Positions 44,546 to 50,355 of a stretch of 64,000 nt of DNA are shown here, in pieces. The notes under the pieces are model-generated. The model was not told the origin of the DNA. It worked only from the letters and a program-made list of their open reading frames with translations, and did no database searches. A program made the position numbers and the translations under genes. Each line of letters begins with the position of its first letter. Positions within the stretch are counted from its first letter, which is position 1. Source of the DNA: Longimycelium tulufanense (lineage in GTDB: Bacteria; Actinomycetota; Actinomycetes; Mycobacteriales; Pseudonocardiaceae); assembly GCF_014645795.1 (NCBI RefSeq), contig NZ_BMMK01000017.1:88336-152335 (forward strand), written 5' to 3'.

Positions 44546-46087
44546 TTACGCCTGCCCCCTCGACGCCGTGCCCGCTGGCTCGGTCTCCTGCCGACCCGGC
44601 TTCCGCTGTCGGAGCGCGACCGACGTGAACATCGCGAGAAGCGCGACGGTCACACAGGCCACGACCGCGGTCAGCCGGAAACCGTAGGTGTACGCGGATC
44701 GTGCGGCGTCGGCGATCAGGTCGCCGGCCTCGCCCCCGACCCGCCGGGCGGCCGTCACGCCTTCCCCGATCGAGTTTCCCGCCTCGGACGGCGTGACCGC
44801 CTCGAGCTTGTCCGGCAGCACGAAGCTGTGCGTGTAGAGCGCTGCCATCAGGCTGCCGAGCAACGCGATACCGAGCCCGGCACCGACTTCGTAGGAGACC
44901 GACTCGATGGAGGCGGCGGCTCCGGCTCGGTGCTGCGGGGCACCGGTCATGATGGCGTCCGACGCCACCGTCTGCACGGCGCCGTGCCCGGCACCGATCA
45001 ACACCAGACACACCATGATCACGCCGGAAGCGTGCTGGGTGGAGAATGCCGCCGTCCCCGCGTACCCCACCGCTGCCATCACAAGCCCGGCCGAGACAAC
45101 CCCGCGCAGGCCGAGGCGGGACACCAAAAAACCACCCAGCGGGCCACCGACGAACGCCGCGATCGGCATGGGGAGAAGGAAGAACCCTGCTTCCCACGGG
45201 GACAGCCCGAGCACGAACTGCAGCTCCTGGGCGAGCAGCAGTTCGAATCCGACCATCACCAGCACCGGCACCACCGAGGCCAGGACACCGATGCGAAAGC
45301 GTCGTTCGGCGAACAATGTCAGGTCGAGCATGGGGTGCCTGGCGCGTAGCTGGCGCCGGACGAACAGGACGAGCACCGTCGCGCCGACCAACCCGGGGAC
45401 CAGGAACTCGGTGGCTGAGCTCCCACTGTGGGCGAGAGCTTTGACCGCGTAGACGACGCCGACCACGCCGACGATCCCGAGCACCGGTGACAGCGGCTCC
45501 CACGGTTCCTTGTGCTCCGCTGCACGGTTGGCCAGCAACACCGTGACCAGCACCAGCGCGAGTCCCACAATCGGGACGTTGATGAGGAACACCGAGCCCC
45601 ACCAGAAGTGCTCGAGCAGGGCACCGCCGGCCACCGGTCCCACGGCGGCGCCACCGGAGGCAACCGCACTCCAGACGCCGATGGCGACCGCGCGCTCCCG
45701 GTCGTCATGGAACACCTGGCGGATGATGGCCAGCGTGGCCGGGATGATCATCGACGCTCCGGTCGCCAGCGCGGCGCGACCGGCGATCAGTAACGGTGGT
45801 GTCGGTGAGAAGGCGGAGACGGCGGACGCAACCCCGAACACGGCCAATCCGAGAAGCAGCAGCCGCTTGTGCCCCATACGGTCGCCGAGCGGTCCGGTGA
45901 CGAGCACCAGACCCACCATCATCAGCGGGTAGATGTCGGCGATCCACAGCACTTCGCGGGCGGTCGCGCCGAGGGTGTCGGTGAGCGAGGGCACCGCGAT
46001 GTTGAGGATGGTCGCGTCCGCCGCCACCGGTAGATAGCACCCGGCCACGACGGCGAGGACGAACCAGCGATTCTGCTTGTCGGTCAA
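44546..46087 (-). CDS. MFS drug/metabolite exporter, EmrB/QacA (DHA2) type
   Basis: A 513-aa membrane transporter, probably 14 helices, with the motif A-like loop GPLGDRMGHKRLLL and motif C region AVGPVAGGALLEH. It probably exports the product of this operon or confers self-resistance. The start is a TTG overlapping the ATP-grasp stop (TTGA, 46084-46087). It is the last gene of the six-gene operon. Confidence 0.9.
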   Translation of the reverse strand: MTDKQNRWFVLAVVAGCYLPVAADATILNIAVPSLTDTLGATAREVLWIADIYPLMMVGLVLVTGPLGDRMGHKRLLLLGLAVFGVASAVSAFSPTPPLLIAGRAALATGASMIIPATLAIIRQVFHDDRERAVAIGVWSAVASGGAAVGPVAGGALLEHFWWGSVFLINVPIVGLALVLVTVLLANRAAEHKEPWEPLSPVLGIVGVVGVVYAVKALAHSGSSATEFLVPGLVGATVLVLFVRRQLRARHPMLDLTLFAERRFRIGVLASVVPVLVMVGFELLLAQELQFVLGLSPWEAGFFLLPMPIAAFVGGPLGGFLVSRLGLRGVVSAGLVMAAVGYAGTAAFSTQHASGVIMVCLVLIGAGHGAVQTVASDAIMTGAPQHRAGAAASIESVSYEVGAGLGIALLGSLMAALYTHSFVLPDKLEAVTPSEAGNSIGEGVTAARRVGGEAGDLIADAARSAYTYGFRLTAVVACVTVALLAMFTSVALRQRKPGRQETEPAGTASRGQA

Positions 46088-47439
46088 GGTGATTCCGCTC
46101 GCGTGTCGTGTCCAGCGTGCTGGATCCGACCTCGTACCTGCTCGACCAGCGCGTGGAACCCGTCCATCGACGGTGCGAAGATCATGCAGCTCAGTCTTCC
46201 TGCCTCCAGTCCGGTCAGCTCGCAGGGAACGACGCCGGTGGGCGCCGACCCCGGTGCGCGCACCAGGGGGCCGAGGAGATCCAGGACCGCTTCCAGGGAT
46301 ATGCCGGCTTCGAGCCCGTAGAAGTCGAAGTTTCCCACCGCGGTATGTTCTGCGTAGTTTGCCCCGAAAAAGCCCGATCCGAAGTCGTGGACGTGGGTGG
46401 AGCCGGTGCGCCGGGGGTTGAGGTCGAGCAGGAAGACCTCCCCGCTCTCCCGGGCGACCGCGTCGATCCCGAAGTGTCCGCGGTATCCCCGACGCTGGAG
46501 CTCACGGGCGATGACGAGGCTGCCGGACACCAGGTTCTCGTACCACTTCTCCGTCACCAGCGACGGTCCCGTCGCGTTTCCGCGGAGCCGGGTGGGACCG
46601 TCGAACAACATCTCGCACACGTGGGTCAGGACCGGTTCCGCTGCCGGCTCCTCCGGAACGATGTACTCCACCGACGGGAAGACGACATCGTCCCCGTCGA
46701 CGTACTCCTCCACCACGATGGGGTCGTCACCGTAGAAGGTGCCTTCTGTCAGGGACCGGCGGATGTGTTCCGGATCGTCCCCTGGCCGGAAGATGAGCAG
46801 GCCGACACTCGCCTCGCCTCGGTCGGCCTTGGCGATGCAGGGCCGTCCCTCGGCAAGAAACTCGGTGACGGCGACGGTGGCTTCGGCCCGACTGTGGCAT
46901 GTCCGACCGTCGGCGACACGGCAGGTGGATCCGGCCAGGCCGAGCTCGACCACGAGCGACCGCAGGCCATGCTTGGTGTCGAGGATGTCCCGGAGTGTCT
47001 GGCTCGGGCAGCTTTCTGGGAGCTCGACGGTGACACCGCGCAGCCGCAACGTCTCGACGAACGTCCAGAGGTCGGCCGTGGTCGTGTGCGGTAAGAGCCG
47101 GACGCGCCCCGTCGGGCCGGCGTAGTCGACCAGGCCGGCCATCACCTGCTCGTCACGGACGATGTCGGTGAACAGGGATCCGGAGAGGGAACGCGGGCTG
47201 AGGTTGCCTACCCCGGACAGCCCGAGGAAACCCGTCTGCCAGTCGAGGTTTCCGATCGGTCGGGCGGTGACGATGAGCTTCCGGGTGGGTTGCCAGAAGA
47301 CAGCCTGATCCTGCTGGGAGAACGATTCGGCCAGGATTGCGCTGGCCTGGCGCGCGTCGGATGCGCGTCCGGCGACCTCACCGAGGGTGTCGACCGCGTT
47401 GCAGACGCAGACGGTGGGAACCGGATCCGTGCCTGTCAC
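46084..47439 (-). CDS. ATP-grasp ligase with preATP-grasp domain
   Basis: A 451-aa enzyme. The C-terminal half is an ATP-grasp fold with IVVEEYVDGDDVVFPSVEY and the metal-binding block EVFLLDLNPRRTGSTH. The N-terminal half resembles preATP-grasp domains of peptide ligases of the PGM1/PylC-like group. It likely joins a carboxylate to an amine. The GTG start overlaps the stop of the creatininase-family gene (GTGA, 47436-47439). The substrates are unknown. Confidence 0.82.
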   Translation of the reverse strand: MTGTDPVPTVCVCNAVDTLGEVAGRASDARQASAILAESFSQQDQAVFWQPTRKLIVTARPIGNLDWQTGFLGLSGVGNLSPRSLSGSLFTDIVRDEQVMAGLVDYAGPTGRVRLLPHTTTADLWTFVETLRLRGVTVELPESCPSQTLRDILDTKHGLRSLVVELGLAGSTCRVADGRTCHSRAEATVAVTEFLAEGRPCIAKADRGEASVGLLIFRPGDDPEHIRRSLTEGTFYGDDPIVVEEYVDGDDVVFPSVEYIVPEEPAAEPVLTHVCEMLFDGPTRLRGNATGPSLVTEKWYENLVSGSLVIARELQRRGYRGHFGIDAVARESGEVFLLDLNPRRTGSTHVHDFGSGFFGANYAEHTAVGNFDFYGLEAGISLEAVLDLLGPLVRAPGSAPTGVVPCELTGLEAGRLSCMIFAPSMDGFHALVEQVRGRIQHAGHDTRAESP

Positions 47440-48248
47440 GGCCTGCCCTCCGCGCGGTCCGCGGTGACCAGTCCCTCGCGCGGGACCCCGTAGCCGGAGC
47501 GCACCAGCTCGCAGACGTTGTCCACGACATGCCAGAACAGGCGCTCGCCGAGGTCGGCGGACGCACCCTCGGTCGAGGACAGCACACCCTGGTTGGACAT
47601 GCGGGACACGTCGAGTGGATGGACGTACACGCCTGCCAGTGGTGGGGTGTCGTGTCCCGGCCGACTTGCACGGACGGTGTCCGGCCGGAGGTAGAGCATC
47701 AGGCTGGTCTCGGTGAGTCCGGCGTGTTCGGCGTGCCAGCCGGGAAAGTCGGGCAACTCCCGGGCGAGGAAGGAGCCATGCACGAAGCTCCACCAGCTCG
47801 CGGCCAGGATCACGGTGTCACGGAACAGATCGGTGGGCCGGCACCCGTCGATGGCCTCGAAGAGGAGCCCCTCGTTCTCGTAGTGCCCGTTGATGATCAC
47901 CAGACGTCCCGGCCGCAGCTCGGACAGTCCCCGCAGGCAGTCCGTCAGGTACTCGACCAGCGTCGTGCCCCGTAGATGCACGGTGCCCGGGAGGTGCAGT
48001 CCTCCCCCACTCTGTGGGAGGGAGCGCGCCGAGATCGGTTGGCTGGGCAACAGGTACCCGTCGAGCGCGGCCGCGACCTCCTCCGCGATCGCGGAGGGTA
48101 TGTCGTGGTCGACGGACAACGGCAGGTGTGGTCCGTGCTGCTCCAGTCCGCCGACCGCCCACACCAGGGTGGAACCCTCCACAGTGGACCCGACCTGGGC
48201 GCTGGTGAGGTCTCCGTACCGGCGAACGGTCGTCGTGCGACGACGCAT
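47436..48248 (-). CDS. creatininase-family metal hydrolase
   Basis: A 270-aa member of the creatininase/MftE fold. The metal-binding motifs are GGLEQHGPHLPLSVDHD, INGHYENEG and WHAEHAGLTETS. Family members cleave cyclic or linear amide bonds (creatinine, FAPy, mycofactocin leader). The ATG at 48248 has AGGGG upstream and lies 3 bp after the preceding gene. The substrate here is unknown. Confidence 0.87.
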   Translation of the reverse strand: MRRRTTTVRRYGDLTSAQVGSTVEGSTLVWAVGGLEQHGPHLPLSVDHDIPSAIAEEVAAALDGYLLPSQPISARSLPQSGGGLHLPGTVHLRGTTLVEYLTDCLRGLSELRPGRLVIINGHYENEGLLFEAIDGCRPTDLFRDTVILAASWWSFVHGSFLARELPDFPGWHAEHAGLTETSLMLYLRPDTVRASRPGHDTPPLAGVYVHPLDVSRMSNQGVLSSTEGASADLGERLFWHVVDNVCELVRSGYGVPREGLVTADRAEGRP

Positions 48249-48251
48249 CCC

Positions 48252-49166
48252 TCATCCCCTCTTCGGCAGGCTTCGGCCCACCAGGCTGTCGACGGTGGTG
48301 TCATGGCTCCGCAACCAGGCCGCGACCCCGTTCTGGATGGCTGCGAAGGTCTCGTGCATGTTCTTGTGTAGCGCGGTGTAGACCTGCACGACGTTCGCAC
48401 CGACGCTGAGGTACTCGACGACGTCCGAGGCGTGCTGGACCCCGCCACCGCCCAGGATCGGCGCCTCGACGCCCCGCTGGCGCAGAGCGAAGATCTCGGC
48501 GAGCACGAGCGGTTTGATGCCGGCACCGGAATACCCGAACGCGCCGCCGAGCCGCACCTCACCGGTCACCGGGTCGACGGCCAGACCGGCGATGGTGTCG
48601 CTGAGGGTGATCGCGTCGGCGCCCGCCTCCAGGGCGGCCAGCACCCGGTCCCGCGTCCGCTCGCCCACGGCGAGCTTCACGCTGAACGGCAGGGAGGTCA
48701 GCTCCCGGACCGCCTGGACGTGGGCGGCCACCCGGCCCGGGGTGTCGTCCAGGCCCTCCTCCTCGTTCATGCAGGAGATGCCCAGCTCCAGTGCCCGGCA
48801 GCCGGTTTCGGCGACGCGCTGTGCCAGCGTGCCCAGCTCCGCGGGTGAGTTCGCGTGCACCGAGGCGATCACCGGAAGACCGTCCTGGGCGAACCGGGCC
48901 AGCATCGCGCACCAGTCGTCGACGCTCCGGCGGGAGTACGTCGTGCTGTTGAGCATGCCCGTGGGGAGGCGCAGCACGCGCTCGTCACCGATACGGGGTG
49001 GGCTCGGGTGGATGGTCTTGGTGACGACGGCGCCCGCGCCACGCTCCAGCAGGCGGCGGATGTTCCGTTCCTGGTCGGTGAGTAGCCCGGAGCCGACGAC
49101 GACCGGTGACGACAGGGTCATGCCCAGCGCCCTGCACCGGGCACGGCCCTCGGCCATGACAGCCAT
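48252..49166 (-). CDS. dihydroorotate-dehydrogenase-like FMN enzyme
   Basis: A 304-aa TIM-barrel flavoenzyme of the PyrD/DHOD class. It has SSPVVVGSGLL at the start, LPFSVKLAVG on a central strand and the phosphate-binding end APILGGGGVQHASDVVEYL. The usual DHOD region has LELGISCMNEEEG in place of NxSCPN, so it is not a normal pyrimidine enzyme. GGAGG precedes the ATG. It probably oxidises or reduces a small heterocycle or amino-acid derivative. Confidence 0.82.
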   Translation of the reverse strand: MAVMAEGRARCRALGMTLSSPVVVGSGLLTDQERNIRRLLERGAGAVVTKTIHPSPPRIGDERVLRLPTGMLNSTTYSRRSVDDWCAMLARFAQDGLPVIASVHANSPAELGTLAQRVAETGCRALELGISCMNEEEGLDDTPGRVAAHVQAVRELTSLPFSVKLAVGERTRDRVLAALEAGADAITLSDTIAGLAVDPVTGEVRLGGAFGYSGAGIKPLVLAEIFALRQRGVEAPILGGGGVQHASDVVEYLSVGANVVQVYTALHKNMHETFAAIQNGVAAWLRSHDTTVDSLVGRSLPKRG

Positions 49167-49188
49167 GGTTTCCTCCAGCCGGCGCAGA

Positions 49189-49728
49189 TCAGTCCACCAT
49201 TGCCACGGTGTCCCGCGCGGCCGAGGAGATCAGGCCGAGCAGCGTGGAACGGTCGTGCTGCACGCGCGTGATGTCGAAGACGCCCACCTGGGCCACCGCC
49301 GGCAGCCCTCGCAGCAGATGGCTTGCGGTCGGGGTGACGGGCAGCGGCGTGACGAGGACGATCGGCTTGCCGAGTGCGGAGGCCCAGCCCAGCTCGACGT
49401 GGGTGCCGTCGGTGCGCAGCAGCCCGCCGCGTTCGTGTGCGGGCAGGACGGGGACGAAGACGTCGCAGCGCCGCATCCAGCGGAGGTCGCGCTCGGCGAC
49501 CTGCTCGGGAGTGAACAGGGCGGTGTCGTCCCCGAACTTCTCGGCCAGGTGGGCGGAGAAGACGGTGCCGCTGGCGGCCCGCACCGACTCGATGATGTCG
49601 TGGATGGCGTCGCGGAGCGGTGAGTAGAACCCGTCACGTTGGATGGCGTGCTGGATGGGCCCGCCCACGAAGACGTTCATCCCGGTCAGGTCCGCCTCGT
49701 CACGGGTGGTGAGGGAAAGGTCGTCCAC
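49189..49728 (-). CDS. nucleoside 2-deoxyribosyltransferase-like protein
   Basis: A 179-aa protein of the NDT/RCL fold. It has the N-terminal MNVFVGGPIQ and the C-terminal GTHVELGWASALGKPIVLV with the conserved glutamate. Such enzymes cleave or transfer N-glycosidic bonds. The GTG at 49728 has AAGGAG upstream. It lies between the ectC homologue (55 bp) and the flavoenzyme (22 bp). Whether a nucleoside is part of the pathway is inference. Confidence 0.8.
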   Translation of the reverse strand: MDDLSLTTRDEADLTGMNVFVGGPIQHAIQRDGFYSPLRDAIHDIIESVRAASGTVFSAHLAEKFGDDTALFTPEQVAERDLRWMRRCDVFVPVLPAHERGGLLRTDGTHVELGWASALGKPIVLVTPLPVTPTASHLLRGLPAVAQVGVFDITRVQHDRSTLLGLISSAARDTVAMVD

Positions 49729-49783
49729 ATCTGCTCCTTGCTTGTCGGGATCGGCGATGGATCCCGGGGGAACACCGGCGGTT

Positions 49784-50167
49784 TCAGTAGCCCGACGGAT
49801 GGGACCGGCCGAGGTGGTGCCGTTCGTGCCCCTTGAGTGGCGGGTTGAAGACGCTGATGAGGATGAGATCGCCGGCGCCAGCACGCAGGTAGTGCTGGTC
49901 GTGCTGGTCCAGTGCGTAAAGATCGCCGGTCCTGATCGGGTAGACTTTGCCCGCCATGTCCTCGATCTCGCCTTCGCCGGCGATGCAGTAGCAGGACTCG
50001 AGGTGGTTCTGGTACCGCAACAGCGAGGTCGTGCCGGCACGGACGACGGTGTGACAAATCGTGTAACCCATGTTGTCGGACTCGACCAGGAGCCGATAAC
50101 TCCTACCGTTTCCCCAGTCGACGTCGCGATCGGTACCTTTGACCTCGTCGAGACTTCGTACGAACAT
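49784..50167 (-). CDS. ectoine synthase homologue (EctC-like), without ectA/ectB
   Basis: A 127-aa cupin matching EctC along its whole length: [17 protein letters not shown], the [20 protein letters not shown] block and the end [12 protein letters not shown]. By my alignment the iron-site residues of EctC are kept (E57, Y84, H92). EctC closes N-acetyl-diaminobutyrate to ectoine. No ectA, ectB or ectD lies in the window, and the genes behind it are not osmolyte genes. It may therefore do a related ring closure on another substrate. It is the first gene of the operon. Confidence 0.9.
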
Positions 50168-50355
50168 TAAGAAATCCCCACCAAACGAAGTTGTCCACCA
50201 CGGGAGTGGACAGCGATGACCGTTCGATAGATGCGCAACAGGTCAGTTCCGGGATGCGCTCCAGCGGTGGTCACAACGACACCGCGACATGAACCACAGA
50301 TCAGGAGCGTGCCGCGCCGGGCGAGAATGATGGCCGGGACCGTGTCCCGACACAT
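50167..50355 (-). CDS. possible small leader ORF ahead of the ectC homologue
   Basis: A 62-aa frame starting [10 protein letters not shown] and containing CGSC. Its TAA shares a base with the ectC ATG (TAATG at 50165-50169). Third-position GC is only moderate and the ribosome site (GGTGGG) is mediocre. It could be a translated leader or chance; no family is recognised. Confidence 0.25.

Follow-up and report, generated by a model that had tools for sequence, protein, structure and literature searches.

The window analysed here is a stretch of 64,000 nucleotides from Longimycelium tulufanense (contig NZ_BMMK01000017.1), a member of the Pseudonocardiaceae. Its positions 44546-50167 hold an operon of six genes, all on the minus strand in the list of open reading frames (ORFs) of the window. 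These genes encode a homologue of the ectoine synthase EctC, a nucleoside deoxyribosyltransferase-like (NDT-like) protein, a flavoenzyme that resembles dihydroorotate dehydrogenase (DHOD), a creatininase-family hydrolase, a preATP-grasp ligase and an exporter of the major facilitator superfamily (MFS). The product is probably the old antiviral amidine noformycin or a compound very close to it, made from two amidine units, 5-amino-3,4-dihydro-2H-pyrrole-2-carboxylate (ADPC) and 3-aminopropionamidine. We infer every reaction of this route; the direct observations are of the genes present, their homology, the residues that are conserved and the neighbourhoods that recur.

The operon and its recurrence

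The ORF positions agree with those of a preliminary description of the locus, which had placed the six genes head to tail with gaps of 55, 22 and 3 bp followed by two 4-bp overlaps. The same spacing is obtained from the ORF coordinates with the starts chosen here; for the NDT-like and ATP-grasp frames, the ORF list also offers longer starts upstream, and the spacing was computed with their GTG starts. The gene names given in that description agree with Pfam (Table 1); two of the labels are revised below. The exporter also matches the SmvA-like NCBIfam model NF011571 at 5.8e-144, which is under that model's cut-off.

All six genes are found, in identical order, in a genome of another genus of the Pseudonocardiaceae (G078), and again in Streptomyces samsunensis, where EctC has shifted to between the creatininase and the ligase. 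Because of this recurrence, the operon is a real unit, beyond what chance would give. In Dactylosporangium roseum, EctC and the ligase occur together with the genes of the NDT-like protein, the flavoenzyme and the creatininase (hereafter, the trio); adenylation (A), peptidyl carrier protein (PCP) and thioesterase (TE) genes precede EctC, and a PhyH gene follows the ligase. Comparison of this A domain with solved structures pointed to no particular substrate. The genes are not scattered among relatives where they are present, and the ligase is itself rare, with two occurrences in 150 relatives when the genome of the window is counted among them.

Upstream of the operon, a palindrome (TGTCCAC-N7-GTGGACA, 50192-50212) lies 25 nt from the EctC start. 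It occurs once in the window and was absent from the four related loci that were checked. No sigma-70-type promoter was found for the operon, and terminator-like matches were at chance level.

Table 1. Genes of the operon, in order of transcription, with domain matches and predicted roles.
Product	Length (aa)	Position	Strand	Start codon	Domain match (E value)	Predicted role
EctC homologue	127	49784..50167	-		Ectoine_synth, PF06339 (3.5e-41)	ADPC synthase
CMP N-glycosidase-like (NDT-like) protein	179	49189..49728	-	GTG	Nuc_deoxyrib_tr, PF05014 (1.2e-9)	cytosine release from cytidine monophosphate (CMP)
DHOD-like flavoenzyme	304	48252..49166	-		DHO_dh, PF01180 (6.5e-27)	cytosine reductase, giving 5,6-dihydrocytosine
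Creatininase-family hydrolase	270	47436..48248	-		PF02633 (6.5e-46)	dihydrocytosine opening to 3-aminopropionamidine + CO2
preATP-grasp / ATP-grasp ligase	451	46084..47439	-	GTG	ATP-grasp_3 (5e-5)	coupling of the ADPC carboxylate to the 3-aminopropionamidine amine
DHA2-like MFS exporter	513	44546..46087	-	TTG	MFS_1, PF07690 (6e-49)	product export and self-protection

A divergent EctC

The operon EctC retains the iron ligands E57, Y84 and H92, as the preliminary description had claimed, together with most substrate-site residues and the ectoine synthase fold. It differs from the EctC of ectoine synthesis (PF06339) in that it is not linked to ectAB, has its Trp at position 18, in a WGNG motif, and not at 21 (a Gly here), has Cys at 38, and lacks the ENGxYPL tail, its C-terminal residue being Tyr. 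It is known that Trp21 is completely conserved in 437 EctC proteins of ect clusters and shifted by two residues in some orphan EctCs (PMC6344544). In a tree of 24 sequences, the non-canonical EctCs, that of the operon among them, stand opposite the EctB-linked EctCs across a 100/100 branch. On the fetched loci, a C-terminal Tyr is present in all 21 distinct EctC-like proteins that have no EctB nearby and in none of the 39 that have one; a weak EctC match in a Chromobacterium genome (6.8e-4, below the cut-off) was left out of this count. The C-terminal Tyr and WGNG form a simple signature, which separates the two kinds of EctC on every locus fetched.

The same description had called this EctC an orphan. 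With respect to the operon this stands, as ectA and ectB are absent from the six genes (Pfam) and no EctB homologue was found on the fetched stretch. It does not hold for the genome, in which a complete ectA-ectB-ectC-ectD set lies on another contig (C4; Pfam matches to GNAT, class III aminotransferase, Ectoine_synth and PhyH). The operon EctC is therefore a paralogue, and ectoine can be produced without it. In the D. roseum genome, no EctC match was found besides the operon EctC.

Related EctCs have been observed in several other settings. On rhizobial, Agrobacterium vitis and Paraburkholderia plasmids (L120, L121, L122 and L123), EctCs 59-68% identical to that of the window stand among differing sets of genes, and the stretches fetched contain no trio; in Sinorhizobium terangae (L121), an annotated ATP-grasp gene lies about 2 kb from EctC. 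These come from 120 plasmid records matched by EctC, of which 40 were listed and seven opened. At two more loci (L127:6909-12305 and L128:7469-12916), EctC is followed by an A-domain gene, then by one or two further genes and an ORF of roughly 410 codons whose product begins with a hydrophobic segment; the trio is absent there. The class-wide EctC search was made into at most 30 loci, a second strong non-canonical EctC place in genome G924 being left out.

In addition, non-canonical EctCs occur with an A domain, a carrier protein, an acyl-CoA dehydrogenase and TrpD/TrpA/TrpF/TrpC-like genes (L068:5328-15263, L069:4777-11474, L124, which is plasmid pSCL4 of Streptomyces clavuligerus, and L126). 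A ketosynthase (KS) gene is present in L068, L126 and the Aliiroseovarius locus L125, which has fewer Trp-like genes, and parts of the Trp-like/EctC set also flank L091 and L092. This context reads like one in which ADPC is loaded onto a carrier, oxidised to an aminopyrrole and given a second pyrrole ring.

The trio and the ligase

The trio was counted at 24 loci, chosen for the ligase or for a strong match to the NDT-like hydrolase. Seventeen have trio and ligase (the window, L022, L008-L020, L003 and L005), and seven, from Streptomyces (L072-L078), have the trio but, within the 11-20 kb fetched, no homologue of the ligase. The trio lies on one strand in all 24; the order is NDT-like, DHOD-like, creatininase in 21 and DHOD-like, creatininase, NDT-like in the remaining three (Agrobacterium twice, and Chromobacterium). 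All 33 trio sites checked are invariant across these loci. Among 392 Streptomyces genomes, 27 have a match to the NDT-like hydrolase at 1e-6, ten of them strong (1e-60 or better) and the others weaker family members.

The nearest solved structures to the NDT-like protein are the CMP hydrolases BlsM (6e-12) and MilB (9e-12), and the next family is DNPH1/Rcl (0.006). The protein has a GTH-x-E motif, its E112 is invariant at all 24 loci, and it belongs to the same family as a protein that UniRef names Dst4. It is thus better called CMP-hydrolase-like, the activity being predicted. The DHOD-like enzyme retains the active-site C132 as well as N73 and N134. Its G129 and D190, both invariant at the 24 loci, stand where PyrDB has Asn; given the role of these Asn residues in PyrDB, the replacements would fit a substrate other than orotate. 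In the creatininase, which matches the creatinine amidohydrolase 1j2t at 1.7e-37, E36, H38, D47, H122 and E124 are invariant in 24 of 24. The three genes thus occur together with the checked catalytic residues kept, as is expected of a pyrrolamide-type 3-aminopropionamidine module.

The ligase, the second protein whose name was revised, is nearest to PGM1, the PGM1 fold extending over the whole chain and ranking above generic ATP-grasp. Pfam gives only the ATP-grasp_3 match, and PreAtp-grasp (PF18604) is present in a relative (P0032). A protein search gave 32 ligase relatives, and neighbourhoods were read for those that recur as loci. The trio was found at 17 of 19 ligase-family loci, and nine ligase sites are invariant in the 17 loci with trio and ligase. 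Distant relatives (26-31% identical) occur in Thioflavicoccus (L004) and in an Anaerolineae metagenome-assembled genome (L021), where no trio was found on the stretch examined, the L021 match being at its contig end; both were omitted from the residue counts. The named genome collection holds 14 ligase loci, one of them distant. In the order of the Chromobacterium genome, the ligase occurs in one of 250 genomes, the one already known, and no ligase relative was found on viral contigs. A database protein of 719 aa (P0007) is a creatininase fused to this ligase family.

Five kinds of partner accompany the trio. In the first, it stands with EctC and the ligase (the window, L022, L008 and L019). 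In the second, seen in Streptomyces noursei (L010:744-12729), the trio, ligase and MFS genes lie opposite divergent genes for an acyl carrier protein, a KS, a FabA-like protein, an AMP-ligase and a class III aminotransferase; from these, the same ligase family would receive another amino acid. Trio, ligase and MFS genes occur in ten Streptomyces loci (L009-L018), L010 being the only one scanned in detail. In the third, on Agrobacterium plasmids, trio and ligase are found with a decarboxylase and a 2-oxoglutarate-Fe oxygenase and adjoin LuxI/LuxR-type genes; in L003:7618-17339, the decarboxylase is diaminopimelate-decarboxylase-like and a multidrug and toxic compound extrusion (MATE) exporter is also present. 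The Agrobacterium and Chromobacterium loci were set aside: no EctC accompanies their trio and ligase, so that another acid must be the partner there. In the fourth, the trio of L072 is accompanied by a luciferase-like monooxygenase, a flavin reductase and an MFS protein, and those of L073, L075 and L077 by a related MFS protein, with no ligase or EctC on the fetched stretches. The fifth is that of pyrrolamide-type clusters (L074, L076 and L078). That the trio stays constant while the acid suppliers vary is as expected of a module that provides one common amine.

In this last context, the trio is 60-72% identical to that of the window and is followed by what are apparently the same sugar-nucleotide genes (as judged by gene layout, with Pfam for chosen genes of L074 and L076). 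From their gene content, the three clusters look pyrrolamide-type. L076, the most fully read, also carries condensation domains, a carrier protein, a methyltransferase, an amidohydrolase and ABC transporters. Its CMP-hydrolase-like protein is 77% identical to P0044, the protein named Dst4 in UniRef, where the incomplete organism name was read as S. netropsis. The pyrrolamides known from S. netropsis have 3-aminopropionamidine as a shared precursor (PMC4047045).

Among the three pyrrolamide-type genomes, only that of L076 (G243, which the identical protein P0033 ties to S. atriruber) encodes a second EctC, divergent in sequence and separated from the trio by about 13 kb. The next gene after this EctC codes for a preATP-grasp protein of 447 aa that shares 26% identity with the ligase of the window and matches PGM1 at 2.3e-7 and PF18604 at 1.2e-5, just below the cut-off. 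The other two (G312 and G330) have EctB-linked EctC only, and likewise the genomes of L072, L073, L075 and L077. The hydrolase of the S. atriruber cluster is 90% identical to one of S. venezuelae, a producer of anthelvencin. Anthelvencin contains ADPC, which congocidine and distamycin are not known to contain, and its cluster includes the ATP-grasp ligase Ant23. From this pattern, EctC and preATP-grasp genes would co-occur where ADPC is made and joined to an amine. The comparison of G243 with G312 and G330 is the strongest link between EctC and ADPC, albeit a small one in which L074 and L078 were less fully read than L076.

A possible route to noformycin and its alternatives

In the proposed route, the BlsM/MilB-like hydrolase would release cytosine from CMP, the DHOD-like flavoenzyme would reduce it to 5,6-dihydrocytosine, and the creatininase-like hydrolase would cleave the ring C2-N3 bond with loss of CO2 to leave 3-aminopropionamidine (C4H7N3O + H2O - CO2 = C3H9N3). 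In congocidine biosynthesis, 3-aminopropionamidine would likewise come from cytosine. The EctC homologue would convert L-glutamine to ADPC (C5H8N2O2), the PGM1-like ligase would form the amide at the expense of ATP, and the MFS protein would export the product. The predicted product, C8H15N5O (197.128; [M+H]+ 198.135), matches what we take to be the structure of noformycin. ADPC is a cyclic amidine amino acid, which fits the cyclic amidine or heterocyclic amino-acid metabolite suggested in the preliminary description. The same description saw no match to a known pathway; this is still so for the whole set but not for its parts, as the trio also occurs in pyrrolamide-type clusters and the cyclisation of glutamine to ADPC is documented as a side reaction of Halomonas EctC (PMC6344544, PMC5924519).

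Several observations weigh against this route. The ADPC reaction of EctC is very inefficient, with its equilibrium towards glutamine (PMC5924519), so that a pull by the ligase has to be assumed, and in PMC4795551 it is worded as a condensation of two glutamines. A Halomonas ectC mutant made ectoine when it carried a solitary EctC from Pseudomonas syringae (PMC5924519); thus, not every orphan EctC need have lost ectoine synthesis. EctC is present at only 4 of the 17 loci with trio and ligase, and the ligase family is therefore not tied to ADPC. EctC relatives on rhizobial plasmids are 61-68% identical, with none among the seven plasmid records that have a hydrolase match, and no clear partner gene was found at EctC loci L129 and L130. 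No electron-transfer partner of the DHOD-like enzyme was recognised within the operon. The additional A, PCP, TE and PhyH genes of D. roseum imply that its product differs or is larger. Finally, L074, L076 and L078 are assigned to the pyrrolamide type by their gene content, condensation domains having been looked up only in L076.

The order of the reactions could also be different. The ligase might first join glutamine or another amino acid to 3-aminopropionamidine, with EctC closing the ring later, or the acid might be a different glutamine-like amino acid, giving an analogue of noformycin. The position of the D. roseum EctC behind A, PCP and TE genes makes action on a bound amino acid possible, and the ligase family occurs beside quite different acid-supplying genes in other clusters. 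Nevertheless, the window EctC has no accompanying A or PCP gene, and free glutamine is a known side substrate (PMC6344544), which leaves this alternative rather unlikely. A lower probability still is given to a trio that makes a different amine, such as a guanidine or beta-alanine-type fragment, for another cyclic amidine conjugate. The DHOD-like and creatininase families are indeed broad, and D190 and G129 suggest a changed substrate without saying which, but the hydrolase is CMP-hydrolase-like and Dst4-related and the trio is found in pyrrolamide-type clusters, whose shared precursor is 3-aminopropionamidine.

It is very improbable that the operon EctC acts as an orphan ectoine synthase to supplement the ectoine supply and is linked to the other five genes incidentally. 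Its iron ligands, substrate-site residues and fold would allow this, as would the P. syringae precedent; however, ectABCD is present elsewhere in the genome, the only EctC match in D. roseum is that of the operon, the protein falls in a clade apart, its Trp is displaced and its C-terminal segment replaced, and the six genes recur together in other genera. Least credible is a catabolic or protective operon for pyrimidine salvage or amidine disposal. The MFS protein resembles drug exporters and could act as a drug pump, and degradative pathways, too, employ DHOD-, creatininase- and hydrolase-like enzymes; but a PGM1-like amide ligase and a cyclase are enzymes of synthesis and not of breakdown, and one cluster that contains the trio also has nonribosomal peptide synthetase (NRPS) parts.

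The function of solitary or orphan EctCs, which made up 145 of 582 surveyed, about a quarter, has been called unresolved (PMC5924519, PMC6344544). For this question, the operon offers a concrete substrate, product and partner enzymes, and is directly testable. Tentatively, orphan EctCs with WGNG and a C-terminal Tyr might even form a glutamine cyclase family of their own (ADPC synthases), in which a side reaction has turned into the main one. They would feed a proline-analogue cyclic amidine into many antibiotics: into noformycin here, coupled to aminopyrroles in anthelvencin-type clusters, and, in a third type, loaded on a carrier, oxidised to an aminopyrrole and built up to a pyrrolo[2,3-b]pyrrole by tryptophan-like enzymes. 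A single activity for the whole clade is a conjecture, because of the rhizobial EctCs without a hydrolase match, the partnerless L129 and L130 and the ectoine-making EctC of P. syringae.

If the noformycin route is true, the operon is a minimal, NRPS-free gene set for this compound. The trio suggests a portable 3-aminopropionamidine module used by several unrelated assembly systems, and in genomes of this kind, ectC by itself could be a misleading predictor of ectoine production. No biosynthetic paper was found for noformycin (noformicin), EctC with ATP-grasp, EctC with pyrrole or Trp-like genes, or CMP hydrolase with amidine; most subscription papers were outside reach, and the cluster may be published.

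Comparison with known systems

The CMP-hydrolase-like protein shares the GTHVE-GWAS motif with BlsM, of blasticidin S, and MilB, of mildiomycin. Unlike these, it belongs to a trio that also includes a reductase and a creatininase; consequently, cytosine would be consumed and not built into a nucleoside. The ligase is 14-21% identical over the fold to the ATP-grasp peptide ligases PGM1 (the pheganomycin ligase) and BesA, and the substrates predicted for it, a small cyclic amidine acid and a non-peptide amine, are unlike those of peptide ligases.

The closest parallel is with the pyrrolamide clusters (congocidine/netropsin, distamycin and anthelvencin). Through the pyrrolamide-type loci, these have in common with the operon the three-gene set in the same order and a Dst4-related hydrolase, and the S. 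atriruber cluster also has a divergent EctC, next to a preATP-grasp ligase. By contrast, the operon has no NRPS, carrier protein, aminopyrrole or sugar-nucleotide genes, and one ligase would assemble everything; stand-alone NRPS domains and aminopyrrole genes are absent from the six genes by Pfam, the neighbours being judged by gene lists. Each part of the operon resembles something known, and it is the combination that is new.

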